Shown here in pieces: positions 1,505-22,695 of a DNA stretch of 35,591 nt (the stretch's first letter is position 1; the number at the start of each line of letters is the position of its first letter). The notes under the pieces were generated by a model. That model was not told the origin of the DNA. It saw only the letters and a list, made by a program, of their open reading frames with translations, and made no database searches. Position numbers and translations under genes: made by a program. The DNA is from Chitinophagaceae bacterium (lineage in GTDB: Bacteria; Bacteroidota; Bacteroidia; Chitinophagales; Chitinophagaceae), in NCBI GenBank assembly GCA_947379895.1, contig CANCPA010000026.1, forward strand, positions 1-35,591, in the 5' to 3' direction.

Positions 1505-1549
1505 GTGATTCCGCAGAGGCTCGAACTCTGGACCCGATGATTAAGAGTC
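1505..1549 (-). repeat. attL: 45-bp copy of the tRNA-Lys 3' part
   Basis: This copy is identical over 45 bases to 22651-22695 and diverges on both sides. It covers the discriminator base, acceptor 3' strand, T arm, variable loop, anticodon stem 3' strand and anticodon loop of tRNA-Lys. The 5' half of the tRNA is missing, so this is an attachment-site scar and not a second tRNA gene. Confidence 0.92.
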
Positions 1550-1570
1550 TCAGACTATTTGACAATTCTT

Positions 1571-1597
1571 CTTTTCATTTGCTTTCATTTGTTTGCA
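1571..1597 (+). promoter_or_regulatory. Candidate integrase arm-binding repeats, left end
   Basis: Two tandem copies of a CTTTCATTTG-like decamer lie at 1571-1591, followed by TTTGCAT. A related CTTTGCTTTCAG lies near 1638-1650. The same motif occurs in inverted orientation just inside the right att site (22595-22610, TTTCATTTGCAAAC on the minus strand). Short direct repeats flanking the core att sites are typical of arm-type sites for tyrosine integrases. The role is inferred from position only. Confidence 0.4.
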
Positions 1598-1677
1598 TCT
1601 CATTGATATTCAATATAACTTATTCGAAAGTTCCTTTCCTTTGCTTTCAGATAATTATCTATTTTATCACTGAAAAA

Positions 1678-2946
1678 ATGCAAATTGTTATGCAAATTTT
1701 TAAGCCTACAGTTACCATTTTCTTAGATACTAGGAGGATGAAGAAAGATTTAACTTACCCTTTAAAGATTAGGGTAATTCATGCAAGAACCCCTAAATAT
1801 TATAAAATTGGGGTGGACGTTACGAAAGAGGATTTTGAATTGATTAAAAATGCCAGCCAATTAAAAGCCCTTAAAGATGTGGGTTTGAGAAGGAAGCTGA
1901 ATGAGTTAAAATTGAAATGTGATTCAATTCTAATCAAGGCAACAGAGTTAATCAATGGAATGGATGAATTCTCTTTCGAAATATTTGAAGATAATTTCTT
2001 CAATAGGAAAATGCCTGAAAAGAGAGTTGAGCTATTGGACTATTTTGAAAAGCTTATTGATAATCTTATAAAAGAGGAAAGAGTTGGAACTGCTTTGAGT
2101 TATCGTTCTTCTTTGATGAGTCTTAAAAAGTTCAATCCTAATCTGAAATTCAAAGAAGTAAATGCAGAATGTCTTAAAAACTTTGAAAGATGGATGTTGG
2201 AAAATGGAAAGTCAATTTCCACAGTTGGAATTTATTTGCGTCCTTTAAGAATGGTATTCAACGCTGCAATAGCCGATAATATCATTGGTAGAGATATTTA
2301 TCCTTTTGGTTTACGGAAGTATAAAATCCCATCATCCAAAAATACCAAAAAAGCACTTACTTCTTCTGAATTGAAGTTGTTGTTTGATTATGAGCCTTTA
2401 GCAGGTACATGGTATGATAAGGCTAAAGACTTCTTCCTATTTAGCTATTTATGTAATGGAATGAATATGAAAGACATACTACACCTTAAAAATCGTGATA
2501 TAGATAATAATTTCATTCGCTTCACAAGAGCAAAGACGATAAACACCAATAGGGCAAACAGTGCAAAAATATCTGTTTACATTTGCGAGCAAGTTCAAGA
2601 CATCATTAACAAATGGCGTAGTAGCGGTACTGACCCAGATGATTATATCTTTCCGTTCTTAACAAAATCACTTACTCCTGAAAAAAGGCATGCAGATACT
2701 CAGCAATTCATAAAGATGGTAAATAAGTACTTAAAAGATATTATAATCAAACTTGAGATTAACAAACCAATTACCACCTATTTTGCTAGACATAGTTTTG
2801 CTACTATGCTCAAAAGAAGTGGTATGAGTACAGAGGTAATTTCAGAATCTTTAGGACATAGCAATATTTCCACAACTTCAAGCTATCTAGATAGTTTTGA
2901 TGATGACACTAAAAGGTTAATATCTAAAGCCTTGATTCCACAATAG
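1678..2946 (+). CDS. int: Island tyrosine integrase
   Basis: A tyrosine recombinase of about 422 residues that probably catalyses integration and excision of the island at tRNA-Lys. The N-terminal arm-binding region (FKPTVTIFLDTRR, then a K-rich stretch) is followed by a SAM-like domain and a catalytic domain. The latter has TYFARH in the box II region (the HxxR histidine replaced by Tyr), the GHSN histidine and the SSYLD nucleophile tyrosine near the end. The box I arginine position reads NGMNMKDI, so it lacks the canonical Arg, as some Bacteroidetes integrases do. The frame is open from 1471 through the att repeat, but homology starts near MQIVMQIFKP, so I use the ATG at 1678 (1690 is an alternative). 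It sits 129 bases inside attL and points into the island. Confidence 0.9.
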   Translation: MQIVMQIFKPTVTIFLDTRRMKKDLTYPLKIRVIHARTPKYYKIGVDVTKEDFELIKNASQLKALKDVGLRRKLNELKLKCDSILIKATELINGMDEFSFEIFEDNFFNRKMPEKRVELLDYFEKLIDNLIKEERVGTALSYRSSLMSLKKFNPNLKFKEVNAECLKNFERWMLENGKSISTVGIYLRPLRMVFNAAIADNIIGRDIYPFGLRKYKIPSSKNTKKALTSSELKLLFDYEPLAGTWYDKAKDFFLFSYLCNGMNMKDILHLKNRDIDNNFIRFTRAKTINTNRANSAKISVYICEQVQDIINKWRSSGTDPDDYIFPFLTKSLTPEKRHADTQQFIKMVNKYLKDIIIKLEINKPITTYFARHSFATMLKRSGMSTEVISESLGHSNISTTSSYLDSFDDDTKRLISKALIPQ

Positions 2947-2970
2947 AATTTTGCAGGTTAAGTTTGATGA

Positions 2971-3001
2971 GGCTTGCCCGATAGGGCGGCCTTGTCAAGC
3001 C
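2971..3001. terminator. Hairpin between convergent int and umuC
   Basis: GGCTT pairs with AAGCC (2971-2975 and 2997-3001), and an inner GCCC-GATA-GGGC hairpin (2976-2987) lies inside. It falls between the convergent ends of the integrase and umuC. There is no T-run on either side, so a terminator role is only suggested by position. Confidence 0.3.
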
Positions 3002-3096
3002 TACCTTGAGCAAATGACTTCACAACTTAGAAATTAATTGACTAAAAATATATCCTCTAAATTACACCTGCAGGGAATGAATAGATACTCTCATAG

Positions 3097-4359
3097 CTAT
3101 ATCTTGATTGTTAGGATCTGTTTTATGTCAGTAGTATAACAAGGTGATAACCGTTCCTGTTTCAACTTCCAATTACGTTTATAGCCCTGTCTTGCAAATC
3201 GTACCAAATCCTTACCAAATGCCTTATTACAGCTATCTAAAGTCTTCATAAGCATATTATCCCTATCCCTTTTCACCTTGTCAAACAAGCCTCCCTGTAT
3301 TTGAGATTCAGGCGTAAAGTGAGTCATCATAACACCCACTTTTTTGTAATTATACCCTTTCCTGTAAATTTTATCCAATCCCCACATTGCATACTTAATC
3401 AATTCGTTAGATGTGTTCGTAGCAACATTTAGAGGAATGGTGATGGAATTGAAATATTGTTTCTCCTGCAGGCGATGAGGATTGGTTTGAATGAATACGC
3501 TTATAGATGCAGTACACGATTTTTGTAAACGCAACTTAACTGCACATGTATGTGTGTAATTAGCGAGAGCCTCTGCAATATCCTGTTTGTTCGATAGCAA
3601 CTTTCCGAAAGAACGTGCTGAACATATCCCTTTCTTAGGTGGTGCCTCAAGTTCCATTTCAATACAGGGTATGCCTTTTAGTTCTTGCAACATCCTTTCA
3701 CCAACTACAGTCATGTGATTTCTGACCCATTCATTCGATAGTTTTGTGAAATCTGCTGCTGTTAGAACTCCCATTTGTGAAAGTCTGATATTATGTTTAG
3801 AGCCAATTCCCCATACATCGCCTATTTCTGTCAATGAAAGGGTTGTCTGTATTTTTTCAGGGGAATCAAGGAAATAGACACCTATCTCCCTGCATTTCTT
3901 CTTAGCATACCTGTTAGCTACCTTCGCCAATGTCTTTGTAGGTGCAATGCCAATCGTTACCGGAATGCCCACGCTATTCTTCACTGCAGAGCGTATTTGA
4001 ATACATAGGGTTACAATTTCTTCTGTCTTATAGTTTGAGAGGTCAAGAAATGCCTCATCTATTGAGTAAACTTCCATGTCATCCACAAAGGATGCAAGTA
4101 CCTTTATCACCCTATTGCTAAGGCTGCCATAGAGCGTATAATTCGACGAAAAGACGTGTACCTTGTTTTGATTAAAGAAGCCCTCCATTTCGAATGCCAA
4201 TGCCCCCATCTTAATGCCTAATTCCTTTGCTTCCTCTGAACGTGCTATCACACATCCGTCATTATTACTTAGGACAACAACAGGCTTACCTTCCAATTTA
4301 GGATTAAATACACGCTCACAAGAGGCGTAAAAATTATTACAGTCAACTATTGCAATCAT
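3097..4359 (-). CDS. umuC: UmuC-type Y-family DNA polymerase (Pol V catalytic subunit)
   Basis: An error-prone translesion polymerase that with processed UmuD copies damaged DNA. Length is 420 residues, near the 422 of E. coli UmuC. The N-terminus [18 protein letters not shown] carries the first metal-binding Asp (D6), and the [10 protein letters not shown] motif carries the second Asp-Glu pair. The palm/fingers are followed by a little-finger domain and a C-terminal tail ([15 protein letters not shown]). The family start is the ATG at 4359; the frame extends 30 bases further upstream into umuD. It lies 10 bases after the umuD stop, so the two form one operon. Because it rides on a mobile island, it could supply SOS mutagenesis to the host or act in repair of the element's DNA. 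The catalytic residues look intact. Confidence 0.95.
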
Positions 4360-4369
4360 GATGTATCCC

Positions 4370-4813
4370 TTATACCAAATTGGCATCAATTATAATTCTC
4401 GTTACTGTTCCCCAAACCCTAAAATCCATTTCTTCTGTAATCGGAATTGGTGGGTATCTCGAATTGGCAGGCATCAACCTGATTCCAGAACTATTTTTTA
4501 TCAATCGTTTTACTGTAAACTCACCATTGATGCTTGCAACAATTATCTGATTGTTTCTTGGGTGGATTGACTTGTCCACTATCAATAATGAATTGTTAGG
4601 GATGTGTGCATCCATCATTGAGTCACCCACAACCCTTACAAGGTATATAGAAACAGGATTAGGAGCCAGATAATCGGCAAGATTGATGTCATCCTCAATG
4701 TAGTCTGCTGCAGGTGATGGGAAGCCAGCCTGAACGTAATTTCCATTGAATATGATGGAAAGAAATTGAAGATTCCTAATGTTGTAAGCAATTTGCGATT
4801 TAGTATTAACCAT
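4370..4813 (-). CDS. umuD: UmuD-type S24 autoprotease subunit of Pol V
   Basis: The 147-residue partner of UmuC and a LexA-like self-cleaving serine protease. The cleavage site is the Ala29-Gly30 bond in VQAGFPSPA, the nucleophile Ser65 lies in GDSMMDA, and the general base Lys102 lies in TVKRLI. The 37-residue spacing between Ser and Lys matches E. coli UmuD (Ser60, Lys97). There is no N-terminal helix-turn-helix, so it is not itself a repressor. It is the first gene of the umuDC operon. A perfect 15-base palindrome lies 8 bases upstream of its start codon and is the likely site of SOS-type or phage-type repression. Confidence 0.94.
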
Positions 4814-5203: not shown

Positions 5204-5917
5204 CTATTCGCCCCATTCTTCTGCTCCTAATGGTAGTTCATTTAGTTCTACTCTTGCTTCACGCCAGTTAGGATAATGTTTATTCATTAAGGAAACAAAG
5301 TTGTCGTTGTGTGTTGGCTCAATAAGATGAATCATTTCATGTACTACAACATACTCAACAAGGTCTTTAGGTTTTTTAACTAACTCTGTATTGAGGCGTA
5401 TGTTCTGTAACTTGTGATTACAACTTCCCCATTTGGTTTTCATACGCTGTATGAAATAGGCATTTACTTTAACACCTAAGACCTTTTCCCACTGGGCAAT
5501 CACTTCTTTTATGTAAGTATGTAACAATGACTTTTGCCATTCATAGAGTATTTCCTCTCTCTTCTCTTTATTACTTCCGGATTTGACATAAAGGGTTATT
5601 TTTTTGTGGTCTATTTCTACCCTTGATTTTTCATCAACCACAATATTTAGCAAGTACACTCTTCCCCATAAGTAATGAGATTCCCTTTTTATAAATTGCC
5701 GAGGCGTTTCCCTTAACTGATTTGCCATTTTAGTTTGCTGCTGCCTTATCCAAGATAATTTAGATATTGCATAAGCCCTAGCAACTTCTAATCTCGTATT
5801 AGTAGGAGCAGACAATAATACTCTTCCATCTGGTGGATATACAGACAAATGAACATTTTTGATGTCCTTTCTTGTTACTTCAATACTCAATTCTCCTATC
5901 TGTATAATATCCTTCAT
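5204..5917 (-). CDS. YgjP-like (DUF45/M48-type) metallopeptidase of the RM operon
   Basis: A putative zinc peptidase of 237 residues in the YgjP-like family. The C-terminal half has KTKWGSC (160-166) and the zinc motif HEMIH (193-197), with a third likely ligand His203 in PTHNDNF. The N-terminal half is the beta-rich region usual for the family. Such genes are often found at the end of type I restriction operons; their role there is not established, and turnover of restriction subunits is only a hypothesis. Its start codon overlaps the hsdR stop by one base (TAATG), which implies translational coupling and membership in the same operon. No signal peptide is seen, so it should be cytoplasmic. 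Confidence 0.88.
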   Translation of the reverse strand: MKDIIQIGELSIEVTRKDIKNVHLSVYPPDGRVLLSAPTNTRLEVARAYAISKLSWIRQQQTKMANQLRETPRQFIKRESHYLWGRVYLLNIVVDEKSRVEIDHKKITLYVKSGSNKEKREEILYEWQKSLLHTYIKEVIAQWEKVLGVKVNAYFIQRMKTKWGSCNHKLQNIRLNTELVKKPKDLVEYVVVHEMIHLIEPTHNDNFVSLMNKHYPNWREARVELNELPLGAEEWGE

Positions 5918-8900
5918 TAATAGCCATTCATATTTTTAAGAAGCTTGAACAATAGTTTTGTCGACTCCCGATTTCGTTTCATCAATGGGAACAAAGCATT
6001 TAAAACTTCTTTCTCCCTTGTATCATCACCACGCCAACCTGCAGGGGCTTTCTCTATCATTACCGAATTAATTTCTAAAGCCAATGCAACCAATTCTTCC
6101 CCATAATAAAAGGTTTCTTCTCCAGTAGTGTAAGTCTTGTCTGCTTGCTCCAATATTGATGGCAGGTTATTATAAATAACAATTGCCTCTGCCTTTCCTT
6201 GTAGCTTACTTGGGATGGTACTTGATTGTTGCCCCTTAGAAATGTTCTTTACTAATTCCTCAGCTTTTCTTAAAAACTCTTCATATTCTATTGTACCCTG
6301 TCTATTTTGCTGAATTAAATCATCCAACAATTTCGACATCTCTTCATAAAAACGGGGGTCAGTCAATTGGTCTCTTATTATTGTCTGCCTTACATTGTTG
6401 ATAATACCTTCTGCAATGGAATTTCGAGATAGTTTTCCCTTTTCATTTAGCTTCTTTGCTATTGCATCATGAATGCCAGTTTTGATAATCATTTCCACCA
6501 ACGAATACTTATCTACTTCACCCAAGGGATCGGCAGGTTCTGCCTTTATATAAGTATTCAACAAGTGGCGCATATCTGCTTCAAAAGGTTTAATGTCTAG
6601 TTCCTCACCAGAATATCTTTTGATGGCAGATCGTATGTCTGTGTAAAACTGAACCTCTGTATTAATTGTTTCAATATCTGTGTCATTATATCCTGCTTCG
6701 GTTAGATAAGCAGAAATAACAGCAAATGCCCTTACATAGGAAACGACTGATTTATAAAATGAAATTCTCAGTGGTTCGGTTTCATTCAAGGAATTTGGGT
6801 TGTTTACATCTCCACAGAAATAGGCAATAAATTGTTCCATTTCTTTTGGGCGAGCAACTGGTTCACATAAATACTTTAAGGTCTCTCTAGCTTCATCCAG
6901 TCTTTTCTTACCTTCTACAAGCCAGTTCTTCAATTCTACATTATTTGTCTGAACACCACCCTCTTCTGTATCCAATTCATCAGATGTATATACAGCAATT
7001 GCCTCTTGAACATCACCAAACAATTCTTTGAAATCTACTATATACCCAAAATCTTTATCATCACCATCCAAACGGTTGGTACGGCATATTGCTTGAAAAA
7101 GATTATGGTCATGCAATTCATTATCTAAATATATGTAGCTACAGGTAGGTGCATCAAAACCAGTGAGTAGTTTACTCACCACAATCAATAGTTTGCAATT
7201 TGCTGGTTCTTCCTTAAAACGTTTTTTAAGCTCGTCCTCATATTGTTTGGTGGTTTGCTTATCCTTTAAAACATGCTTGGTGTAAGTATCAAACTTATAA
7301 CGTTCATCGCTATTTGCCGGTTCTCTTGATATGGCATTGTGATTGGGTTCAAAAGAAGTTACAATACCACAATACTGTCCAAAGTTGGTGTTGTGAAATA
7401 ACCGATAATAATGACAGGCATCATAGATAGAAGCTGCTACCAGAATAGCCGTACCTCTATTATTGTTCAACCTGCTTTTTAAGCTAAAGTCTTCAATGAT
7501 ACTTGCTATAATCCGTTGCTTTCGTTCGCCTGCACTCATTAGTTTCTCCATGTTTGCCCAGGCTTTGCGGACAACTGCCTTTTGGAAATTATTGAGGTTT
7601 TTGGTCTTTGCCTCAAACCAATTGTCTATTGCAGCTTGCGAGGTAAGCTGCTGAGGAACAGTTCTTGGTTCATATTTTAAATCAAGTACTACTTTGTCGG
7701 CTACTGCCTGATGAAACTTATACGTATGAATGTTTTTACCAAATACATCCCTTGTAGTTGGCTTATCTTTTTTTAATAATGGCGTGCCTGTAAAACCTAT
7801 GAAGATGGCACTGTGCAGCCACCGTTTCATTTGTTTGCCCATATCGCCCATTTGTGAGCGATGGCATTCATCTACAAATACATAAAACCTTCCTAATACA
7901 GTTGGTGTTACGCCCGAAAGGTCCTGTGTGTCGAACTTATGAATTAAAGCACAAAGCAATCTTGGACTCGTTGCACCTAAACTTTCAATCAATTTAGCCC
8001 TTGACAAAATTCTTGGGGATGGTGCTGTTTCGGGTATGACCCCAGCATTGCGCATTACGCCCTCTATTTGTTTGTCTAGCTCATCCCTATCGGTTACTAT
8101 CAGTATTCTTGCATCGGGGTCATGTTCCAATATCCACTTTGCCAATAGAACCATCAAAATACTTTTTCCACTTCCTTGGGTGTGCCAGATAACACCTCCT
8201 TCCCTGATTCGTATTTTTTCCTGTGCTGCTTTTATCCCTGCATACTGATGTGGACGGGGTACTTTTTTTTGACCAGCATCGTAAATGATAAAGTTTCTGA
8301 TAAGTTCTAGGAACATTGCCTTATTGCACATTTGTGCCAAAGGCCTATCCAATAATTCGCCTGCTGTAGTGCCAATAGGGGTATTGGTTTGGTCTTTCCA
8401 GTTTACAAAAAATTGTTCAGGCGTTCCCGTTGTACCATACCATAGCCCTTGCGAATCACTCCCAGCAAAAACAACTTGAACAGTAGAGAAAAAATGCACA
8501 TTAAAATCATTCTCTTGGTTGGTAATTAATTGCCTAATACCATCTGCCACTTCTATCGAACCACGCTTCAATTCAATAACCCCCAAGGCAATACCATTTA
8601 CGTAGAGTACCAAATCGGGGCGACGCTCATAGCCACCTTTTAGGGTAACTTCTTCTGCAATGCCAAAGTCATTGTTGTTTGGGTTTTCCCAATCTATGAT
8701 GCTCACATCTTCGTAAGGTTTTTCTATGCTTGTTTTTACCTTTATAGGGTAGCGTAGCAAACTGTAGGTTTTCATGTTTGCCTGATACAAGTTAGTGCCA
8801 GTTGTATCTGCTGCGGATTCTAGCTGTAGGGTAGCCGCCGAAATTTGGGCTTCGGTATAACCTCTTTTTAATAGGTTCTTCCGTAGCATTTCAGTTTCTA

Positions 8901-9033
8901 TATTGCGGTTGTTTTTCCTAATTTGCCAGTCGCCTAGCCAATCATACCCCAAGCAATCGGGGCGGTTGGTATCGGTAAATAACTCAACTACCCTGTCTTG
9001 TGTATTGCGTTCTGTGCGTGGGTTATTGCTCAT
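5917..9033 (-). CDS. hsdR: Type I restriction enzyme R subunit
   Basis: The 1038-residue motor and nuclease subunit that translocates DNA and cuts unmethylated targets. The N-terminal nuclease has the PD-(D/E)xK signature: Asp140 in RRPDLVLY and Glu154/Lys156 in GVIELKRG. The SF2 helicase core follows, with Walker A TQGSGKS (285-291), the Walker B-like DECH (388-391) and GFTGTPLL. A second RecA-like lobe contains LLTGFDAP and QAICRTNR. A C-terminal helical region would bind the methylase. The length is normal and the motifs are intact, so it is probably active. Its start overlaps the end of hsdS by 11 bases and its stop overlaps the peptidase gene. Confidence 0.97.
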   Translation of the reverse strand: MSNNPRTERNTQDRVVELFTDTNRPDCLGYDWLGDWQIRKNNRNIETEMLRKNLLKRGYTEAQISAATLQLESAADTTGTNLYQANMKTYSLLRYPIKVKTSIEKPYEDVSIIDWENPNNNDFGIAEEVTLKGGYERRPDLVLYVNGIALGVIELKRGSIEVADGIRQLITNQENDFNVHFFSTVQVVFAGSDSQGLWYGTTGTPEQFFVNWKDQTNTPIGTTAGELLDRPLAQMCNKAMFLELIRNFIIYDAGQKKVPRPHQYAGIKAAQEKIRIREGGVIWHTQGSGKSILMVLLAKWILEHDPDARILIVTDRDELDKQIEGVMRNAGVIPETAPSPRILSRAKLIESLGATSPRLLCALIHKFDTQDLSGVTPTVLGRFYVFVDECHRSQMGDMGKQMKRWLHSAIFIGFTGTPLLKKDKPTTRDVFGKNIHTYKFHQAVADKVVLDLKYEPRTVPQQLTSQAAIDNWFEAKTKNLNNFQKAVVRKAWANMEKLMSAGERKQRIIASIIEDFSLKSRLNNNRGTAILVAASIYDACHYYRLFHNTNFGQYCGIVTSFEPNHNAISREPANSDERYKFDTYTKHVLKDKQTTKQYEDELKKRFKEEPANCKLLIVVSKLLTGFDAPTCSYIYLDNELHDHNLFQAICRTNRLDGDDKDFGYIVDFKELFGDVQEAIAVYTSDELDTEEGGVQTNNVELKNWLVEGKKRLDEARETLKYLCEPVARPKEMEQFIAYFCGDVNNPNSLNETEPLRISFYKSVVSYVRAFAVISAYLTEAGYNDTDIETINTEVQFYTDIRSAIKRYSGEELDIKPFEADMRHLLNTYIKAEPADPLGEVDKYSLVEMIIKTGIHDAIAKKLNEKGKLSRNSIAEGIINNVRQTIIRDQLTDPRFYEEMSKLLDDLIQQNRQGTIEYEEFLRKAEELVKNISKGQQSSTIPSKLQGKAEAIVIYNNLPSILEQADKTYTTGEETFYYGEELVALALEINSVMIEKAPAGWRGDDTREKEVLNALFPLMKRNRESTKLLFKLLKNMNGY

Positions 9034-10234
9034 TTGCTATAGGTTTATAAATTCTTATTTTTCCTGTCAAAAGGTTTTGCATCATACCCTGTTTTAGTTG
9101 TTTGTATTTCTCCAACTTCGTTTCTAATGCTGTTATTTCATTATCCATATCGGAAAGGATTGTAGCAATTTGTGATTGTTCTTCTTGTTTGATAGGAAAA
9201 CTAATTTCTAACTCTCTCAAAACACCTAATGAAATGAACTTTTGGATTCCTCCATCAAGTTTACTTTCAAGGTAAGTTTGGAATAAGTTTGAATTAATTA
9301 GTTGTATCAAAAAATAGTTGTAAACTTTTTTTGGTTTCAATAAAGCAACATTCTTAATACAGAAATCAGGATTAAAATCTACTAATACTGCATTCCCAAT
9401 TGTTCCTATCATAGACATAATTATATCCCCATTATCTACTTTGGAACGTTGATTAATTTGATTTGCATCCTCTTTGGAAATTAAAGAAACATCAGTATAA
9501 TCAAGTTTTGAATTTATTATATTCTTTGAAGTTATAAAATAGACCCCATCATTTACATATTTTGGCGAATCGTGAGTTCCATCTCTTACATCACAGACCT
9601 CCCCCAATTTCTTCACTTCCCATCCTCCCTTAGGTTTCAACAATTCCTGCATTGCCCCTTGTTTGATGTTTCTTTTTTTGGCAATTAAACCTTCAAGACT
9701 ACTAATCAAACTATCCGTATCCGATAAGGCAGTCGCAATTGCTGTTTGCTCGGATATAGATAAAGGATAAGGAAATGAAAAGCCTTCCATTTCCCATTTT
9801 TGAGTATGAACTAAAGCAGAAGCTCCATGAGCATTATCTTCTATATATTTTGTTAGGTTTTTTAATGCGTATTTAAAGTATGACTTGTCAATTTTTTCTT
9901 CATTTATTAAAATTTTCCAAGTGTGATAATTTAATAGTGCCTTAGTACCTTGCCATACATGTGGCCCGAATGAAGTTCCCCTACTTCCTGACCAAGCAAA
10001 AAGAAGTTGCCCATTTTCAACTTCAATTTTACTATCATATTGTCCTTCATAATAATTAAAATCTTCCGAACCATTTAAGTTTTGAATACGAATAATGGGA
10101 AGACCATTCTTTTTCCATTCAAATGGTTTAAACCCCCTCCCATTTATTAATTGGCAAACGTCTTTTATTTTGCTCACTTGCCAATCATCTGGAATTACGC
10201 CTACTTCTGTTTGTTTATACCCTTGTGCTACCAT
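9023..10234 (-). CDS. hsdS: Type I restriction specificity subunit
   Basis: The specificity subunit, with two target-recognition domains that each read half of a bipartite DNA site. TRD1 covers roughly residues 10-170 and TRD2 roughly 205-355 from the ATG used here. Each is followed by a conserved helical spacer: the first ends IKQGAMQELL and the second LKQGMMQNLLTGKIRI. The opening GYKQTEVGVIPDDW is typical of HsdS. The ATG at 10234 is preferred over an upstream TTG at 10258. It is separated from abiEii by about 185 bases that carry four copies of an octamer, so it may have its own control. Recognition sequence cannot be read from the protein. Confidence 0.95.
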   Translation of the reverse strand: MVAQGYKQTEVGVIPDDWQVSKIKDVCQLINGRGFKPFEWKKNGLPIIRIQNLNGSEDFNYYEGQYDSKIEVENGQLLFAWSGSRGTSFGPHVWQGTKALLNYHTWKILINEEKIDKSYFKYALKNLTKYIEDNAHGASALVHTQKWEMEGFSFPYPLSISEQTAIATALSDTDSLISSLEGLIAKKRNIKQGAMQELLKPKGGWEVKKLGEVCDVRDGTHDSPKYVNDGVYFITSKNIINSKLDYTDVSLISKEDANQINQRSKVDNGDIIMSMIGTIGNAVLVDFNPDFCIKNVALLKPKKVYNYFLIQLINSNLFQTYLESKLDGGIQKFISLGVLRELEISFPIKQEEQSQIATILSDMDNEITALETKLEKYKQLKQGMMQNLLTGKIRIYKPIANEQ

Positions 10235-10287
10235 AAGTTTTCTTTTTATGCTTATCAAAACTACAAAGTCTGCTGCTTTTATGTAAT

Positions 10288-12096: not shown

Positions 12097-12163
12097 CATC
12101 AGTATAACATGAATATAACAACAATGAAACATTTCATTTTGAAACTCGTAGAAGACCAATACT

Positions 12164-14593
12164 TTATATACTAAAACCCATCCTTATTAAATGTTCCTTA
12201 ACCTTATTCTCTAATGCAGCTACCTCTTTCGTCTGCAGTGGCATAGGCGTTTCATATCTTTCTATCAATTCTTTTATCCTGCCTGTTAATTGTTGGCTTA
12301 CCCTTTCCATTTCGGCTTTAACAGTTATCTCAATAGCTGGCAACCACTTATCCTCCACTACAATAACTTTTACCTCCGCTTCTGTTAGGGTAGGGTATTT
12401 TTCGTAAGCCAATTTATCAAGTGTTTCTTCTCTATCACGAATGTTTGTTTTCAGCTCGCTTTGCTGTTTATCTAGTGCCAACCATTGCTTTAATATTTCG
12501 ACATCCTCCTCAAAATCATCATCATCCTTTATCTCCTTAAAACGTTTGCTTACTTCTGCCTTGTTAATCTTTTCTAGTTCTGAAAAAGCCCCATCTTCTC
12601 CAGAATTTTCTTCCTCTAGTTCTGTTATAGAAGAAAGTGTGGTTTCTAATTCTGTCTGTTTTTCATTGATTGCAGCTTGTTCCTTTGCAAAATACTTAAC
12701 TACCAAAATAGTTTTAGGTACTAAATCACAAACCCATCCTTTGTCTTTTAGTTTTCCTTTGTCCTTCCCTGCTTTCACTTCTTCTAAAACCCTTCTTGTT
12801 TCAGCTTTCCAACCATCAGCAGCTATCAGGTAGGCATCATCCTGCATGGTTTCGTTCCAGTAATTCATCAAGTGCTGATATACATCATAAGCATTAATGA
12901 GTCTTGCTGTTTTGAAAGTATTCAACAAGTTTTCAGCTAATAGTTCTATCAATAATTTGGGCTTACCTTCTTTATCAAATCCATTAAGGTTCGATAATTC
13001 CTGTTGTTTCCATGCTTCAAAAATGGCAGCATTTACTTTTTGAAGTTCATGAAACTCCTTGTTTTGATGAATAATTGATTTAATTTCTGTTGCTTTTTGG
13101 GTAGCTTTCACATATCCTGTACGGTTAGCAGCTTCAAAAAGAGATGCCCTTAAACTCGGAAGAACAGTCCAAAACGATTGCAAATCATCAATATCACTTA
13201 CAGGTATCCCGCCATTTAGATGGGCATCAATATCTTGTATATCCTCCCTTTCTGTAGCATCAATATATCTAGGTATGTTTAGATTGTAATCGTTTTTCAC
13301 ATCTGCAATCTCATCAAGCGGTACCATCCTAGAAAACTTTTCAATGGATTCTAATTTGGTAAAAGCATCTACTGTTTTATGAATATCCTGATCCCTAAGC
13401 CTATTCTTATTGCCATCCTTAATAAATCCTTTTGAGGCATCAATCATAAAAATACCCTTACGGGCACTTGCATTTTCCTTATCCATCACCAATATACAAG
13501 CGGGAATACCTGTGCCATAAAATAAGTTGGCAGGCAAACCAATTACGCCTTTCAAAATACCTGATGTTATTAATTGTTTACGGATGCCAGCCTCGGCATT
13601 CCCCCTGAATAAAACCCCATGAGGAAGGATACATGCCGCTTTTCCTGTGCTCTTCATGGAACGGATAATGTGCAATAGATAAGCATAATCCCCTTGTTTG
13701 CTAGGCGGAACACCCCAGCTAAATCGCCTGTAAATATCATCTGCAGGTGAAAGCCCCGTACTCCAAGTTTTATCTGAAAAGGGGGGATTGGCTACCACAT
13801 AATCATAAGTTCTCAAATTATCTCCCACTAAAAACTTTGGTGATGCAAGGGTATTACCAGCCATAATGTTGGCAGTAGTAAAATTGTGCAATATCATGTT
13901 CATCCTAGCCAAACCCGAAGTGGTTACATCTTTTTCTTGACCTTCTAAGGTGATTTTCTTACCTGCTTCTGCTGCCACTTTCAATAATAAGGAACCTGAA
14001 CCGCAGGTAGGGTCGTAGCCAGTAGTTGCTGCCACTGAATTTTGAGGTGTAATACCAATTACTTTGGCTAATATCCTACTAACCTCGGATGGAGTATAAA
14101 ATTGACCTTTGCTTTTACCACTTTCTTGAGCAAAGTGCTGCATCAGATATTCGTATGCATCGCCCAATATGTCGTCATGGTCGGCTCTATTTTTCGAGAA
14201 GTCCAACAATGGATTCTTGAAAATATTGATAAGATTGGTTAATCTATCAACCATTGCCTTTCCTTCTCCAAGTTTGTTTGGGTCATTGAAATCAGGGAAG
14301 TCGTTTCGGGAAAGCTTGATGTTATTATCAATTAATGGTTGGATAATTTGGGTATTTATTCTTTCCCCAATATCATCTTTTCCTCTCAATTCAAGCATAT
14401 CCTTGAAGCTAGAGCCGATAGGGATTTTAACTGCTGGCTCAAAGTCATCAGAGTCAGCATACTTATCGGAGATATACTTGATGAAAAGCATGAACAGGAC
14501 ATAGTCCTTGTATTGGCTAGCATCCATACCTCCCCTCAACTCATCACAACTAGCCCATATAGAACTATATAATTCGGATTTCTTTATTGCCAT
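12164..14593 (-). CDS. hsdM: Type I N6-adenine methyltransferase subunit
   Basis: The modification subunit, which with HsdS methylates adenines in the target and protects host DNA. The N-terminal helical domain (residues 1-150) is followed by GQFYTP (163-168), SAM motif I DPTCGSG (194-200) and the catalytic NPPF (269-272). At 809 residues it is about 300 longer than E. coli HsdM (529). The extra C-terminal part (about 500-809) is charged and predicted coiled coil, rich in Glu and Lys; long forms like this are common in some phyla. It is the first gene of the operon, about 118 bases upstream of abiEi. Motifs are intact. Confidence 0.96.
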   Translation of the reverse strand: MAIKKSELYSSIWASCDELRGGMDASQYKDYVLFMLFIKYISDKYADSDDFEPAVKIPIGSSFKDMLELRGKDDIGERINTQIIQPLIDNNIKLSRNDFPDFNDPNKLGEGKAMVDRLTNLINIFKNPLLDFSKNRADHDDILGDAYEYLMQHFAQESGKSKGQFYTPSEVSRILAKVIGITPQNSVAATTGYDPTCGSGSLLLKVAAEAGKKITLEGQEKDVTTSGLARMNMILHNFTTANIMAGNTLASPKFLVGDNLRTYDYVVANPPFSDKTWSTGLSPADDIYRRFSWGVPPSKQGDYAYLLHIIRSMKSTGKAACILPHGVLFRGNAEAGIRKQLITSGILKGVIGLPANLFYGTGIPACILVMDKENASARKGIFMIDASKGFIKDGNKNRLRDQDIHKTVDAFTKLESIEKFSRMVPLDEIADVKNDYNLNIPRYIDATEREDIQDIDAHLNGGIPVSDIDDLQSFWTVLPSLRASLFEAANRTGYVKATQKATEIKSIIHQNKEFHELQKVNAAIFEAWKQQELSNLNGFDKEGKPKLLIELLAENLLNTFKTARLINAYDVYQHLMNYWNETMQDDAYLIAADGWKAETRRVLEEVKAGKDKGKLKDKGWVCDLVPKTILVVKYFAKEQAAINEKQTELETTLSSITELEEENSGEDGAFSELEKINKAEVSKRFKEIKDDDDFEEDVEILKQWLALDKQQSELKTNIRDREETLDKLAYEKYPTLTEAEVKVIVVEDKWLPAIEITVKAEMERVSQQLTGRIKELIERYETPMPLQTKEVAALENKVKEHLIRMGFSI

Positions 14594-15199: not shown

Positions 15200-15556
15200 A
15201 TGGTTAAGGTAGCAGGATTTAAAGAGGTAAAAAAATCAGATGGAACCTCATTTATCACATTGGAATTAATGGGAGGAATCGAAATGGTTCAATCTCAACA
15301 AACAGGGAATTACTACGCAACAGTGCGTAAATGTAGAGTTCCTAGTACGTTCGATTCAAACATCGCAGAGATGATGATTGGTCAGACAATCGAAGGTGAC
15401 ATTATAAGGGTAGCAGTTGACCCTTATGAGTACGTAAATCAACAAACTGGAGAGCAGCTTACCCTACATCACTCGTATGCTTATCGTCCAAAAGGCTCAA
15501 TTGAGTTGATTCGATATGTAGAAGAGCCGATTCTAGAAGTAAGAAAGATTGGGTGA
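15200..15556 (+). CDS. Small beta-rich protein, possibly OB-fold
   Basis: A 118-residue protein that I do not recognise by family. Alternating hydrophobic strands, the frequent Gly and Tyr, and its place directly before a RecA-like ATPase suggest a single-strand-binding or OB-fold-like partner, but this is inference only. It has no signal peptide or membrane segment. It is the first gene of the plus-strand operon and is followed by the ATPase after 66 bases. The start at the ATG 15200 has no Shine-Dalgarno, as is usual for this phylum. Confidence 0.75.
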   Translation: MVKVAGFKEVKKSDGTSFITLELMGGIEMVQSQQTGNYYATVRKCRVPSTFDSNIAEMMIGQTIEGDIIRVAVDPYEYVNQQTGEQLTLHHSYAYRPKGSIELIRYVEEPILEVRKIG

Positions 15557-15622: not shown

Positions 15623-16504
15623 ATGATTTTACAAACAGCACAAAGAAAGAGGGCTAAAATCCGCATGAACATTGCGTCTCCCTCCGGTTTTGGAAAAACC
15701 TACTCATCGCTACTGATAGCCTATGGCTTATGCAATGATTGGAAAAAGATAGCAGTCATTGATACTGAAAATGATTCAGCATCGCTTTACTCTCATTTAG
15801 GGAGCTACAATACGTTGAGGCTTGATGCACCTTATTCTCCTGACAGATACATTGAAGCCATCAATACATGCGAAGAGGCAGGAATGGAGGTTATTATTAT
15901 TGATTCTGTTACACATGTCTGGAAAGGAACAGGTGGGGTATTAGAATACCAAACTTCACTAGGTGGTAAATACACTGATTGGGCTAAAGCTACTCCATTG
16001 TACATGCGGTTCATCAATGCTATACTACTATCAAAGTGTCATGTCATTACTACTAATCGAAAGAAACAAGGGTACAACATGATTACAGAAGGAAACAGGA
16101 CAAAAGTAGAGAAAGCTGGTCTGGACGATGAAATTAGGGATGGCTATGAGTATGAAATGACTATTGCATTCGAAGTAATTAATGAGAATCATCTAGCTAA
16201 AGCATCAAAAGACAGGACTTGCCTATTTGCCAATGTGCCTGAATTTGTACTAGGAGTACAGACAGGAACGAAGATTCTTGAATGGTGTAATAGTGGTGAC
16301 CCAATTACAGTTGATGATGTCAGTAAAAGGATTGGAGATATGACCACCATTCAACAACTATTATCTCTTTATCAAGAGTATCCACAGTTTAAAGATGTAC
16401 TCAAACCTGAATTTGAGCAACAGAAGAGAAGGATTCTTGTGAATCAGGAAGTAAACACACAATTAATTAATCAACAAAATTTATCATTAAATGGAGTACA
16501 CTAA
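15623..16504 (+). CDS. Sak4/RecA-like AAA ATPase, phage-type recombination protein
   Basis: A 293-residue P-loop ATPase. Walker A is SPSGFGKT (19-26) and Walker B is VIIID (90-94) followed by SVTHVW. The middle has a polar motif TTNRKKQGYN (His-free sensor-like region) and the end is a helical tail rich in Gln. The pattern fits the short RecA-like/AAA_24 proteins found in phages and islands (Sak4 group), which load on single-stranded DNA and promote annealing or strand exchange. Its last 14 bases overlap the next gene. With the preceding small protein and DUF3871 it forms a recombination or replication module. Family assignment is good; the exact activity is inferred. Confidence 0.85.
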   Translation: MILQTAQRKRAKIRMNIASPSGFGKTYSSLLIAYGLCNDWKKIAVIDTENDSASLYSHLGSYNTLRLDAPYSPDRYIEAINTCEEAGMEVIIIDSVTHVWKGTGGVLEYQTSLGGKYTDWAKATPLYMRFINAILLSKCHVITTNRKKQGYNMITEGNRTKVEKAGLDDEIRDGYEYEMTIAFEVINENHLAKASKDRTCLFANVPEFVLGVQTGTKILEWCNSGDPITVDDVSKRIGDMTTIQQLLSLYQEYPQFKDVLKPEFEQQKRRILVNQEVNTQLINQQNLSLNGVH

Positions 16505-17474
16505 CAGCCTACAATTAGAAGTCATTCAACCCATTGAAGTTGAAGAAATGACAAGTACAGGAAAGCCCTTTATTGAGGCGAATACCGTATCGAGTAACAT
16601 GGATGAGATTAGGAAGAATCACATCATACCAGTTTTTGTAAAGGATAATGAACCTCTCGTAAGTCATTCGGAATTCATTGATTCCAGCTGCAGGATAGCA
16701 AGCGATATCTTCCACGATGAGATTATCCTCAAGCCAAACATCAGGTTATCGCATCCTATCAAGGGCAGAATTCCAGAGGCAAAGCATAAGCCTGCTAATC
16801 AATTGATGGATTGGGAGACAACTCTGTACTACGAACGAATGGCATTCATCATTGAAGTTCCTAGTATAAGAGGTTTGGTAGGAGGAAATGAACTTTCTCT
16901 AACTATTGGCGGTGTAAAGGCATATAACACTGATAATCTTTACAGCAGGAGCATGAGTGAACAGAATTTCAAGATATTCATCGGCTTTCAGAATAAGGTA
17001 TGTACCAATCTTTGCGTTTGGACAGACGGGTTTATGTCAGATGTTAAAGTCAAGAATATTGAGCAATTAAATATCTGTATTCGCACACTACTCGAAAGCT
17101 ACAACAAGAACTATCATCTTCATCATCTGCAGCAACTCACTGAATATTATCTAACTGAACAGCAGTTTGCACAGCTAATCGGCAGGTGTAGAATGTATCA
17201 GCAGATACCTCAATCAATGAGGAATGATATACCAGCTTTGTTATTTGGTGACCAACAGATGAATAACGTTGTAAGAGATTTTTACAGAGATGACAGTTTT
17301 TGTAGGGATGGAAATGGAAATATCAATTTATGGAAATTGTACAACCTATTTACAGGTGCTAATAAATCCAGCTACATCGATACTTTCCTTGACAAGTCAG
17401 TAAATGCCTATCAATTTGTTGAGCAGGTAAAGTGGGGATTACAAGGCAACTCACATAGTTGGTATTTGAATTAA
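16491..17474 (+). CDS. DUF3871-family protein
   Basis: A 327-residue protein resembling DUF3871 proteins of Bacteroidetes mobile elements. Characteristic are IIPVFVKDNEPLVSHSEFI (residues about 45-63), then a central region with SLTIGGVKAYN and KIFIGFQNKVCTNLCVW. The overall pattern recalls the DUF932 group encoded by plasmids and phages; function is unknown. It starts inside the end of the ATPase gene (14-base overlap), which implies co-expression and perhaps a shared role in DNA metabolism of the element. No signal peptide or membrane segments are seen. Confidence 0.8.
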   Translation: MEYTNSLQLEVIQPIEVEEMTSTGKPFIEANTVSSNMDEIRKNHIIPVFVKDNEPLVSHSEFIDSSCRIASDIFHDEIILKPNIRLSHPIKGRIPEAKHKPANQLMDWETTLYYERMAFIIEVPSIRGLVGGNELSLTIGGVKAYNTDNLYSRSMSEQNFKIFIGFQNKVCTNLCVWTDGFMSDVKVKNIEQLNICIRTLLESYNKNYHLHHLQQLTEYYLTEQQFAQLIGRCRMYQQIPQSMRNDIPALLFGDQQMNNVVRDFYRDDSFCRDGNGNINLWKLYNLFTGANKSSYIDTFLDKSVNAYQFVEQVKWGLQGNSHSWYLN

Positions 17475-17492: not shown

Positions 17493-17735
17493 ATGGATAG
17501 TCAGGAAATCAATTACGTGGATTGCAAGAGTATCCTAGTCATTAACGCTACAGGAAAAATGAGACAATTATTTGTACCTTTTCGTGTACAAGTAATTCTT
17601 GATAGCTCTACATTTAAAAAAGGTAGTTGGGTAATTGTTGACGAAGTACAAACTCACAAAAAGTTCAAGCTTATTTACAGAATTGGCATGAATTGGTGGC
17701 AATATGACTTGTTTCGTATTGCAGTTGTATTTTAA
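17493..17735 (+). CDS. Small hypothetical protein of the recombination operon
   Basis: An 80-residue protein that I do not recognise. It is hydrophobic and aromatic in its C-terminal half (NWWQYDLFRIAVVF). It starts 18 bases after the DUF3871 stop in the same direction and is followed 22 bases later by a strong terminator, so position supports it being real. No motif indicates a function. Confidence 0.6.
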   Translation: MDSQEINYVDCKSILVINATGKMRQLFVPFRVQVILDSSTFKKGSWVIVDEVQTHKKFKLIYRIGMNWWQYDLFRIAVVF

Positions 17736-17852: not shown

Positions 17853-18311
17853 ATGAATGAAACATCACAATTAAAAGTATCAGAATTACAAGTAAGCTAC
17901 AGACCTGCAATAGGAAGAAAGCCTCAAATAAATAGTGCTTTAGATGCTGCAAGGGAATTAAGGAAATTCTTTGATGAAGGAACAATCGCCTTGCAGGAAC
18001 AGTTTATTGTAATGTACGTGAACCATCGTAATAGAGTTTTAGGGGTTTATCCTATGTCTAAGGGTGGAATTGCTGGAACAGTTGTAGAAATACGCTTGAT
18101 TCTCTCTGTAGGATTGAAAGTAGCTGCTACAGGTATCATTATTTCTCACAATCATCCATCTGGGAATATAACACCATCATCTGCAGATAATGAATTGACT
18201 AAGAAGATTAAATCAGCATGTCAATTCTTAGATTTCAAGCTTTTGGACCACATTATACTGGTTCCTGCAGAAGATGAGTATTATTCCTTTGCAGACGAAG
18301 GATTGATATAG
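17853..18311 (+). CDS. radC: RadC-like JAB/MPN-domain protein
   Basis: A 152-residue RadC-like protein. The JAB metal motif is clear: ISHNHPSG with His99 and His101, followed by TPSSAD with Ser109/110 and Asp112; a Glu near 49 fits the upstream acidic ligand. It lacks the helix-hairpin-helix domain of chromosomal RadC, as usual for short forms encoded on islands and prophages. Function is uncertain; despite the name, a DNA repair role is not well established. It stands alone behind the terminator at 17758-17796, with its own leader that contains a small CCTGTC/GACAGG inverted repeat. Confidence 0.92.
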   Translation: MNETSQLKVSELQVSYRPAIGRKPQINSALDAARELRKFFDEGTIALQEQFIVMYVNHRNRVLGVYPMSKGGIAGTVVEIRLILSVGLKVAATGIIISHNHPSGNITPSSADNELTKKIKSACQFLDFKLLDHIILVPAEDEYYSFADEGLI

Positions 18312-20596: not shown

Positions 20597-21034
20597 TTAT
20601 AAAATGAATCCATGTTCAACATTATCCTTCATGAGGTTTTTAACTGTATATACATTCCCGCCCTTCCCTTTCTCATACTTCTTTATATCGCATCTGTTAT
20701 TGGTCTTCTCATAAGTACCACTGAACTTATTCCAAGCACTCTTAATTACACTTGCCTTTGCATCCTTTGTTATTATCAACGCATGTATATGGTAATAGCC
20801 ACTCTGATGAGGCTCTGCCACCCAAAAGATTTTAAATATATCTGGTTGCTTTTGAAATAGGTAATTTGATAACCTTTCAATCTTTGAACATGCCCTATTC
20901 AATGACATATTTTCTCCTGATGTGAATGTTACCATAAAATCCCATTCAAACCTATTAAGGAATTCTATGTACTCCTTGACAGTTCCATAGTCCTTTTCTG
21001 CCTTTGTTTTCAAATTTTCTAATACATTTCTCAT
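20597..21034 (-). CDS. Small HUH Rep-like endonuclease
   Basis: A 145-residue protein with the signature of rolling-circle HUH endonucleases. Motif 1 is FMVTFT (33-38), the HUH metal site is HIH (82-84) in YYHIHALIITK, and motif 3 is Tyr129 with Lys132 in VYTVKNL, the expected nucleophile arrangement YxxK. A Glu at 74 lies just before the HUH site. Such proteins nick a single strand at an origin and are used by plasmids, phages and some transposons. The protein lacks a helicase domain. On an island it may start replication or mobilisation after excision. The upstream region (21035-21422) holds several hairpins that could be its origin. Family inferred from motifs. Confidence 0.78.
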   Translation of the reverse strand: MRNVLENLKTKAEKDYGTVKEYIEFLNRFEWDFMVTFTSGENMSLNRACSKIERLSNYLFQKQPDIFKIFWVAEPHQSGYYHIHALIITKDAKASVIKSAWNKFSGTYEKTNNRCDIKKYEKGKGGNVYTVKNLMKDNVEHGFIL

Positions 21035-21414: not shown

Positions 21415-21422
21415 AATGACGC

Positions 21423-21692
21423 TTATCTTTCTAAGGTGCTAAGTTCCTCTATGGTCTCAACCTTACCTTTATTCATCCAATTATCCAAATCAATTTTCTT
21501 GAAATAGATTAACTTATGAAGTGGCTTAAAATGTGGTATTAATCTGCGGCTTGTCAACTTGTAAAGTGTGGACTCTGCAATCCCTAAATAAATTGCAGCC
21601 TCACTTAGTTTAAGTTGTTCTTTCTGTAAAATCTTCTGGGTTTCTAGAAATTCTCTAATCTCTGCTATCCCTTGCTCTAACTTATGTGTCAT
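21423..21692 (-). CDS. Excisionase-like helix-turn-helix protein
   Basis: An 89-residue DNA-binding protein when started at the ATG 21692. A helix-turn-helix of the HTH_17/MerR-like excisionase type spans residues 28-55: KLSEAAIYLGIAESTLYKL followed by a basic RRLIPHFK wing. The N-terminal third is a helical region. Proteins of this type on islands act as Xis (directionality factor) or as transcription regulators. The frame is open 69 bases further upstream, but that part does not look like the family. It lies near the right end of the island, the position often taken by excision factors in such elements. Confidence 0.8.
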   Translation of the reverse strand: MTHKLEQGIAEIREFLETQKILQKEQLKLSEAAIYLGIAESTLYKLTSRRLIPHFKPLHKLIYFKKIDLDNWMNKGKVETIEELSTLER

Positions 21693-21784
21693 AACATGAT
21701 GTTTATTACACTGCAAATGAAAGCAAGAATAATGAAATTGAACCTTGACGACCTTGATCAAGGTTCACTATAAATTTGGAAAAA

Positions 21785-22495
21785 TCAAGTAGGAAGTTTA
21801 TTTAACTCAAAATTCAAAAGTACTAATTTGTCAGATATAGCTTTCTCAGAACTATTTTTTGATTTTAAAACATTTGCAAGTGACTTTGTACTTAACTCAT
21901 CTTGTTTGTTAATAGAATAAAAGTTTTTAGATATAAAATTGGCTAATTTTATCTTCTTTATACTTGATTTATCTATGATATTATTTTCATAAAATAGACC
22001 AAACAGACAACCAATTTCCTCAACCGTAAGATTTAGTCGAACTTTAAATCCAGCGTTAGAAAATCTCTCTGAGCCTCTCATTTCGTATTCCTCCTCAATA
22101 TATATTTTAATTTCATTTAGCCTATTTGAGTAAATACTGAGCTCACTTTTTAAAGAATTCAAAAGCAAGTCTTTTTGAATTTTTTCAGCTTTTTTAGACT
22201 CTAATTTTGAGGGATTGGGATTCTGGAAATCAAATGAGGTTGGTTCCTTCTTTTTGAAATCTACAGTGGATACTAATGAATTCAATTTGGGTAAGATGGA
22301 TTTGATTTTATCAAGGAATATGTCTATAATCAAAAGAGTTTCTTCGTTATCAAACCCCAATATTCCGTTTTGAATTGATTCAAAAATCAAACTTTTTTGA
22401 AATTCAATACTACTTTCGTTTGTATAAAATTCTATCTCAAACAACCTTTTTTTCAAAGGTTCAAAACACTTATTTATTTCATTTATATCACTCAT
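21785..22495 (-). CDS. Hypothetical protein near the right end of the island
   Basis: A 236-residue, highly charged protein that I do not recognise with certainty. The N-terminal two thirds are helical, probably with coiled coil (residues 80-140 rich in Lys, Glu, Ser). The C-terminal part (about 155-225: FKVRLNLTVEEIGCLFGLFYENNIID, split here across the motif, then KLANFISKNF) resembles a short module seen in several Bacteroidetes mobile-element proteins, possibly DNA-binding, but I cannot name it. It is followed by the excisionase-like gene 92 bases downstream and may share a transcript with it. Its start is the ATG at 22495. Confidence 0.7.
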   Translation of the reverse strand: MSDINEINKCFEPLKKRLFEIEFYTNESSIEFQKSLIFESIQNGILGFDNEETLLIIDIFLDKIKSILPKLNSLVSTVDFKKKEPTSFDFQNPNPSKLESKKAEKIQKDLLLNSLKSELSIYSNRLNEIKIYIEEEYEMRGSERFSNAGFKVRLNLTVEEIGCLFGLFYENNIIDKSSIKKIKLANFISKNFYSINKQDELSTKSLANVLKSKNSSEKAISDKLVLLNFELNKLPT

Positions 22496-22594
22496 AAAAT
22501 TTAAAATTTACCGAAATTAAAGAATTTTATAAATAAGCAACAGATTAGATGCAAGAAAAGGAAAATATATGAAATTTATGAATGTTAGCAAATT

Positions 22595-22610
22595 GTTTGC
22601 AAATGAAAAA
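22595..22610 (-). promoter_or_regulatory. Candidate integrase arm-binding site, right end
   Basis: On the minus strand TTTTTTCATTTGCAAAC matches the CTTTCATTTG repeats near attL, in opposite orientation relative to the island. It lies about 40 bases inside attR. Role inferred from symmetry of position. Confidence 0.35.
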
Positions 22611-22640
22611 AGCACCTACGAGTTTTATGTCGTAAGTGCT
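22605..22640 (-). terminator. Island-borne terminator for tRNA-Lys
   Basis: On the minus strand AGCACTTACG (22631-22640) pairs with CGTAGGTGCT (22611-22620) across a 10-base loop, with one G-U pair, followed by six T (22605-22611). It lies 11 bases beyond the tRNA 3' end and would replace the native terminator displaced to 1446-1478. Confidence 0.78.
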
Positions 22641-22650
22641 TAATTGTCAA

Positions 22651-22695
22651 GTGATTCCGCAGAGGCTCGAACTCTGGACCCGATGATTAAGAGTC
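22651..22695 (-). repeat. attR: 45-bp repeat within tRNA-Lys
   Basis: It is identical to 1505-1549. It overlaps the 3' 44 bases of the intact tRNA gene plus one base downstream, so integration kept the tRNA functional by supplying its own 3' part. Confidence 0.92.

Follow-up and report, generated by a model that had tools for sequence, protein, structure and literature searches.

The window analysed here (35,591 bp) is one whole contig of a Chitinophagaceae bacterium (CANCPA010000026.1), from a 5.32-Mb assembly in 401 contigs. It contains a 21.1-kb element in a tRNA-Lys(CUU) gene. Our favoured reading, at a probability of roughly 0.85, is a site-specific integrative element that would be excised by its tyrosine integrase IntA and moved by a helper, that belongs to a family found in Bacteroidota, and that is probably stacked on a second element. 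The geometry of integration, the position of the integrase and the recurrence of the family in other genomes are directly observed.

Boundaries and tRNA site

The element is enclosed by direct repeats at 1505-1549 and 22651-22695, identical at 45 of 45 positions. With up to 3 mismatches allowed, no further copy exists in the 5.32-Mb genome, and when the window was resampled 20 times under a first-order Markov model, the longest repeat measured 15-19 bp. The repeat equals positions 30-74 of a 74-nt tRNA-Lys(CTT) gene, the sole tRNA identified in the window by ARAGORN, and recombination at the repeat therefore keeps the tRNA intact. The claim of a first-pass annotation that exact 45-bp repeats derive from the 3' part of the tRNA was thus confirmed. 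Direct repeats derived from the tRNA 3' part flank the element, as is the mark of a tRNA-integrated island, and the element's integrase lies beside one attachment (att) copy, IntA starting 141 bp from the distal att if position 1690 is its true start. As the left copy, which is not needed for a tRNA, has zero mismatches, the repeats suggest recent or active integration. The features at the boundaries are as follows.

22651..22724, minus: intact tRNA-Lys(CTT); its 3' 45 nt (22651-22695) are the tRNA-proximal att copy
1505..1549, minus: distal att copy, identical to tRNA positions 30-74
1454..1478, minus: terminator-like hairpin just past the distal att in the tRNA direction (one found, against a mean of 0.3, sd 0.6, in shuffles)
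1690..2946, plus: IntA, the tyrosine integrase of the element, reading inward (start chosen by eye; 1741-2946 served as query in the family and genome searches)

The same layout at other tRNA genes

Two relatives come closest in gene order. The first, G263:C9 (L200/L201, the same DNA as L105, JADBXR010000017.1, a Chitinophagaceae metagenome-assembled genome (MAG)), has exact att repeats at 33533 and 55963 with 22.4 kb between them; tRNA-Met at 80057 contains a third copy. Its order is att, IntA, YgjP, HsdR, HsdS, HsdM, SSB-Sak4-DUF3871-orf80-RadC, Rep, HTH_17, att. A second IntA with AbiE follows position 55963, and then tRNA-Met, so that this stretch forms a tandem partner. The AbiEi/AbiEii pair belongs to that neighbouring element; the first holds only a short AbiEii-like match (87 aa), and no UmuDC was found in 72.7 kb of G263. 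The second, G223:C1 (L234, the same DNA as L090), has exact 46-bp repeats at 227335 and 246016, 18.7 kb apart, at tRNA-Asn, and reads tRNA-Asn, orf80, DUF3871, Sak4, SSB-like, HsdR, HsdS, HsdM, IntA between them; RadC, Rep, HTH_17, AbiE and UmuDC were not matched in this stretch. IntA identity to the window is 47% for G263 and 42% for G223. Judged by sequence comparison, these two are the strongest support for the integrative reading, with the same att logic and the same combination of restriction-modification (RM) genes and core at other tRNAs and in other genera. The first-pass annotation had named relatives with the same order and no att repeats as a sign against an integrative element; the opposite was found, as both closest-order relatives have exact repeats.

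Matches to IntA at E<=1e-40 were found in 48 of 298 genomes of the order, our own included. In 21 of the 29 other IntA loci fetched, the 3' part of a tRNA, from position 27-37 onward, lies upstream of the integrase, 3 of these matches being only 17-22 nt long; 4 loci gave no tRNA match, and in the remaining 4 the match was to a full tRNA-Gly, to the 5' part of a tRNA or to a shorter 3' part. The tRNAs beside IntA relatives include Lys, Met, Asn, Arg, Val and Ala. Among 19 IntA genomes followed in longer stretches, 11 showed exact repeats of 35-66 bp, 6.7-34.6 kb apart, and an intact tRNA bordering the element or array on one side (a count that leaves out the second IntA locus of G223). Type I RM was matched in 5 of the 19 (HsdR alone in G239). 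DUF3871 occurs in only 2 of the 19 stretches (G263, G309), and integrase and core have therefore been exchanged between elements. Of 8 longer IntA stretches, 6 gave a match to an HTH_17-like protein and 1 to Rep. At the same tRNA, tRNA-Lys(CTT), the IntA relative G030 (L208) spans 17.7 kb with an exact 45-bp att and type I RM, and is IME-like (resembling an integrative and mobilizable element) in that it carries a MobA/VirD2-type relaxase at 12114-12926.

Gene content

Besides IntA, the element carries repair, defence, recombination and replication genes, all in open frames of ordinary length according to the open reading frame (ORF) listing. The AbiE pair is placed inside the RM cluster, with HsdS on one side and HsdM on the other.

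3097..4389, minus: UmuC-like Y-family polymerase (Pfam IMS 1.3e-39, IMS_C, DUF4113)
4370..4813, minus: UmuD-like S24 peptidase (Pfam 1.4e-29)
5204..5917, minus: YgjP-like metallopeptidase adjoining HsdR (Pfam 1.2e-56), an HsdR neighbour in G263 too
5917..9033, minus: HsdR, type I restriction subunit (Pfam, PADLOC)
9023..10258, minus: HsdS, type I specificity subunit (Pfam, PADLOC)
10419..11438, minus: AbiEii nucleotidyltransferase toxin (Pfam, PADLOC)
11431..12045, minus: AbiEi antitoxin, DUF6088 (Pfam, PADLOC)
12164..14593, minus: HsdM, type I methyltransferase (Pfam, PADLOC)
15200..15556, plus: tentative SSB-like protein (single-stranded-DNA-binding; AlphaFold model, best PDB matches weak)
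15623..16504, plus: AAA_24 ATPase, Sak4-like single-stranded DNA annealing protein (AAA_24 2.9e-12)
16491..17474, plus: DUF3871 protein (Pfam), predicted fold DUF932-like (AlphaFold model)
17493..17735, plus: orf80, small conserved core protein
17853..18311, plus: RadC JAB-domain protein (Pfam 4.2e-34)
18695-19237, 19300-19884 and 19923-20450, plus: three small ORFs with hydrophobic N-termini as judged by eye, probably exported (no Pfam family)
20597..21034, minus: small HUH Rep-like protein, 145 aa (REP_ORF2-G2P 1.1e-7, phrog_3419 6.1e-6)
21423..21761, minus: HTH_17 excisionase-like protein (helix-turn-helix)
21785..22495, minus: orf236, adjoining the tRNA (no family in PHROGs, PADLOC or NCBIfam)

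Pfam and PADLOC bore out the genes named in the first-pass annotation (UmuC/UmuD, HsdR/S/M, AbiEii/AbiEi, the AAA_24/Sak4-like protein, RadC and the HUH protein); that list was incomplete in omitting the integrase, YgjP, the three putative exported proteins, orf236 and the HTH_17 protein. It had also described the region as free of conjugation and phage structural genes, and none was found in the Pfam scans, which covered window proteins other than orf236, or in PHROGs, with which 9 element proteins were searched. There is no type IV secretion system or coupling protein among the Pfam-scanned window proteins, and no capsid, portal, terminase or tail protein either in these or in the PHROGs search, which also took in the flanking integrase IntB. 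On the proteins scanned, an integrative and conjugative element (ICE) and an intact prophage were both rejected. No relaxase family of the kind that defines a canonical IME was found in the same Pfam scans, and the HUH Rep-like protein is present.

The recombination core

The SSB-like protein has no Pfam, PHROGs or NCBIfam match. Its AlphaFold model (predicted local distance difference test score, pLDDT, 88) finds SSBs as best PDB matches; because they score low (best E 5e-3; VIA Z ~4), the name SSB-like is only tentative. The AAA_24 protein matches phrog_1366 (function unknown) at 1.6e-66 and the Sak4-like phrog_124 at 9.6e-5, and has no match among PDB sequences. For DUF3871, a model built with 22 sequences (pLDDT 84) gave no Foldseek match in the PDB at E<=0.001, and a PDB assignment by VIA was not used (Z <=7.2, entries of various families). 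In the viral library BFVD, 20 matches were obtained at E<=0.001; those named DUF932/TIGR03299 (phage proteins) scored 1.8e-6 to 2.5e-5 with a Foldseek probability of 1.00 and TM-scores of only ~0.4. The model thus predicts a DUF932-like fold, with modest TM-scores. The TFT, HxHxL and YxxK motifs of the HUH Rep-like protein are common to two relatives. The HTH_17 protein scores 27.6 bits against TIGR01764 (excise), just under the cut-off of 28.8, and is a candidate recombination directionality factor.

A second SSB-Sak4-DUF3871-orf80-RadC block lies in the same genome at C43:4871-9060 (L063), beside an intact tRNA-Met, its DUF3871 being 76% identical to that of the window.

Relatives that share the core

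DUF3871 was found in 12 of 149 relatives, our own included. A species-level collection yielded 276 DUF3871 loci, the best 80 of which were analysed. By record title these 80 span Bacteroidota broadly (2 are Aliifodinibius MAGs), with one exception, L109, a short contig of a MAG labelled Gammaproteobacteria. Iterated profiles matched Sak4-like in 62, SSB-like in 53, orf80 in 50 and RadC in 27 of them, and UmuC, UmuD, AbiEii, Rep and HTH_17 in 2 each. Sak4 lies <=1.5 kb upstream of DUF3871 in 62 loci, the SSB-like gene within <=2.5 kb in 52, and orf80 <=2 kb downstream in 46. Some Hsd protein is present in 20 loci, HsdM and HsdR together in 6. tRNA genes were found in 45, an integrase of either type in 34, and one or both in 56, as raw counts.

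At least 11 of the 80 loci have an exact tRNA-derived repeat of 30-73 bp, with copies 6.5-19.7 kb apart. This is a lower bound, as loci were cut 10 kb to each side (L090 proved bounded once extended). The count leaves out L091, whose 47-bp repeat lies at a distance of 339 bp, and L080, whose 25-bp repeat falls in a second tRNA call, and keeps L151, where the second copy, called tRNA-Arg by ARAGORN, is the repeat itself. The repeat is the 3' part of the tRNA in 8 of the 11 and the 5' part in 3 (L114, L127, L135); in these three it consists of the tRNA 5' part plus upstream DNA, and the side of attack varies within the family. Among the 25 commonest families, Pfam scans of 131 proteins from the bounded loci gave DUF3871 in 11, AAA_24 in 9, integrase PF00589 in 9 and RadC in 5. 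Among the PADLOC matches listed for these loci are AriA, type IIG RM, TIR-TM, HamB and a type IV restriction enzyme. UmuDC stands beside the core in G032 and G063. The combination of genes had been called unusual; the core with RM cargo in fact recurs, and UmuDC recurs in a few relatives.

In Segetibacter koreensis (L088), the DUF3871 core directly follows tRNA-Lys(CTT), with UmuDC ~8 kb further on. The tRNA and repair cargo are those of the window, and no att repeat was found in the 21 kb read.

The sole plasmid record with DUF3871 (1 of 72,556 at E<=1e-5) is NZ_OY725960.1 (L079), a circular 15.5-kb record of B. finegoldii that carries DUF3871, two integrases, a recombinase and an Eco57I-type methylase. 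It may be an excised relative. As proof of an excised circle it was rejected, having no tRNA-derived site (blastn with 104 tRNAs; best match 12 nt).

A second integrase at the left flank

A further tyrosine integrase lies just outside the left repeat.

135..1466, minus: IntB, second tyrosine integrase, followed by the contig end

Relatives of IntB at E<=1e-60 were found in 2 other genomes of the 298, and in both, ~155 bp lie between the 3' end of a complete tRNA (tRNA-Arg and tRNA-Lys(TTT)) and the start of the integrase, which reads away from the tRNA. If 1505 was the end of the tRNA before the present element entered, this position matches that of IntB, and together with the terminator-like hairpin beside that att it makes a tandem insertion likely. 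The left flank is thus probably another element, its IntB end proximal to the tRNA and in tandem with the present element, as judged from these two relatives. Given that IntB lies just outside the repeat and its relatives lie beside tRNAs, this flank is probably not native chromosome; in place of the clean empty site that the first-pass annotation expected, excision at 1505 would probably leave the second element behind. No third full att copy was found in the genome (<=3 mismatches), the far end of the IntB element lies outside the contig, and the native left flank was not located via the rdgB context in the same genome.

Elsewhere in the genome, an exact 25-bp piece of the tRNA-Lys 3' end follows a hairpin-like stretch at C8:14260-14284 (L168), with no tRNA called in 20 kb. 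It is possibly a relic att site, or it may be the distal att of the IntB element; its neighbours look chromosomal. In Pedobacter sp. BS3, another integrase directly follows the distal att (L136, 18824-18962), likely a tandem at tRNA-Val.

Beyond the tRNA, the window holds inverted repeats at 24821-25049 and 35286-35591, including a 99-nt pair at 92%; the latter set forms the contig end, resembles a small dispersed repeat and may have broken the assembly. Tandem paralogous ORFs of ~900 aa each lie at 28732-31434 and 32463-35195, two 300-bp segments being 71% alike; judged by eye, the pair resembles sensor histidine kinases.

The tRNA-Lys(CTT) site in the genus

We surveyed 13 genomes of the genus including our own, and 10 of the other 12 have a readable tRNA-Lys(CTT) 3' side; the sequence of G009 stops 24 bp beyond the tRNA, and no site of this kind was obtained from G001. 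In 9 of the 10, no IntA- or IntB-type gene occurs in the 2.5-19 kb read. The tenth, G011, is occupied, with an IntB-type integrase beside the tRNA and a primase-like protein. On another contig of G011 there is an exact 44-bp att copy with an orf80 relative nearby, and we infer that the two contigs join.

Proposed mechanism and alternatives

The anatomy shows that IntA recombined an attP, equal to the tRNA from anticodon arm to 3' end, with the chromosomal tRNA, which restored a whole tRNA on one side of the element and placed a 45-bp copy on the other. The later steps are proposed from the families of the proteins. The HTH_17 protein, as the likely excision factor, would together with IntA release a circle that holds a single 45-bp site. 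Nicking of this circle by the HUH Rep-like protein probably starts rolling-circle replication, and single-stranded DNA would be handled by the SSB-like and Sak4-like proteins along with DUF3871, orf80 and RadC. As no packaging or conjugation gene was detected, transfer would most likely depend on a helper, either a phage or a conjugative element. The cargo, made up of type I RM, AbiE and UmuDC, would protect the host and stabilise the element.

Several observations weigh against this integrative, helper-moved reading. There is no read-level or strain-level sign of excision, the contig has no native flank beyond the left att, and the genus relatives differ in the genes after the tRNA, which precludes a strict empty-site comparison. 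An exact repeat was lacking at the first IntA locus, in the stretch read, in 8 of the 19 IntA genomes. Only 34 of the 80 fetched DUF3871 stretches have an IntA- or IntB-like gene, and the second core block, on C43, has neither such an integrase nor an att repeat in its 28-kb contig. The presence of Rep-like and HTH_17-like proteins in 2 of the 80 loci each means that replication and excision are not shown family-wide.

The helper step divides into two sub-cases, to which we give equal weight. It is possible, at somewhat less than even odds, that the element is a phage satellite, which would excise and replicate upon infection by a helper phage and be packaged in its particles, with RM and AbiE excluding competing phages. 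Integrase, excisionase-like HTH, Rep-like, Sak4-like and SSB-like genes in the absence of structural genes are consistent with this, as are the replication genes that differ between relatives (a BT4734-like primase in L136 and G011, DUF3987 in L139) and eight DUF3871 loci on seven IMG/VR contigs. However, no packaging or terminase-like gene is present among the scanned proteins, DUF3871 occurs in only 2 of 50,697 phage records (E<=1e-5), and no helper is known. Among the proteins of the IMG/VR loci (80 of the 101 listed), the best 25 of 97 PHROGs families include no phage structural family.

Equally tentative is an integrative mobilizable element, moved by a conjugative element via its own origin of transfer (oriT), perhaps with the HUH Rep as relaxase. 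The relaxase of G030 at the same tRNA favours this reading, as do the Bacteroidota IMEs known at tRNA 3' ends (described in passages of PMC5704250). It is countered by the lack of a relaxase family among the Pfam-scanned window proteins and by the small size of Rep (145 aa).

A stranded genomic island, no longer mobile and kept for its defence and repair genes, is unlikely. The missing evidence of excision and the piece on C8, which resembles a decayed site, would fit such an island, but the integrase, HTH and Rep-like frames are open, and the left att, not under selection as part of a tRNA, has kept its match over all 45 positions. An assembly or binning artefact at the tRNA repeat is very improbable: the assembly has 401 contigs and this contig ends near IntB, yet similar att-bounded layouts occur in other assemblies (G263, G223).

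Relation to known elements and significance

P4-like satellites and phage-inducible chromosomal islands (PICIs) have an integrase, an excisionase-like HTH protein and a replication gene of their own, as does the window element. Tycheposons are tRNA-anchored and cargo-bearing and have no conjugation genes, again as here, a likeness by description only. Tycheposons are named in PMC11389934, and in passages of PMC9122126 and PMC11389934 the satellites and PICIs also share with our element defence cargo and transfer that depends on others; in contrast, no satellite marker or helper was identified here, and the cases in the abstract of PMC9122126 are from E. coli. Passages of PMC5704250 describe NBU1, NBU2, Tn6031 and MTnPi4 as Bacteroidota IMEs at tRNA 3' ends with a tyrosine integrase, features that the window element shares. 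NBU1 and NBU2 need a helper to move and carry a MobP relaxase (same source), whereas no relaxase family was found in the Pfam-scanned proteins here, and those passages make no mention of the SSB-Sak4-DUF3871-orf80-RadC block for Bacteroidota IMEs. The source also reports a tRNA-Lys IME/ICE tandem with two very different integrases in Streptococcus agalactiae; by description, accretion at tRNA-Lys and two very different integrases are alike, while the phylum differs.

Elements of this general kind are thus known already, among them islands that integrate in tRNA genes, IMEs that accrete in tandem and satellites that carry defences, as far as passages of PMC5704250, PMC11389934, PMC9122126 and PMC10121019 go. 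No name for the family was found in the open-access literature, among matches listed by title and start of abstract, subscription journals being mostly outside this search; the term DUF3871 had its sole occurrence there in a paper on iron deficiency. The suggestion of an undescribed type of element is supported in so far as no family name was found, and is weakened by the familiar kind and by the IME-like relaxase of the G030 relative.

Tentatively, and at a little under even odds, we propose an unnamed, phylum-wide family in Bacteroidota, defined by a portable block for single-stranded DNA recombination (SSB-like, Sak4-like, DUF932-fold DUF3871, orf80 and RadC) with exchangeable integrases, replication initiators and defence cargo. 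Its members would form tandem arrays in tRNA genes, be a main carrier of RM and other defences, and spread as single-stranded DNA with helpers. Many defence genes ride on elements whose transfer route is unknown, and the present element raises the questions of what Sak4-like and SSB-like proteins do without a phage body, whether a HUH Rep could double as a relaxase, and how arrays stack in tRNA genes. DUF3871 offers a simple marker for such elements in Bacteroidota, the bounded members of which carry RM and other PADLOC families.

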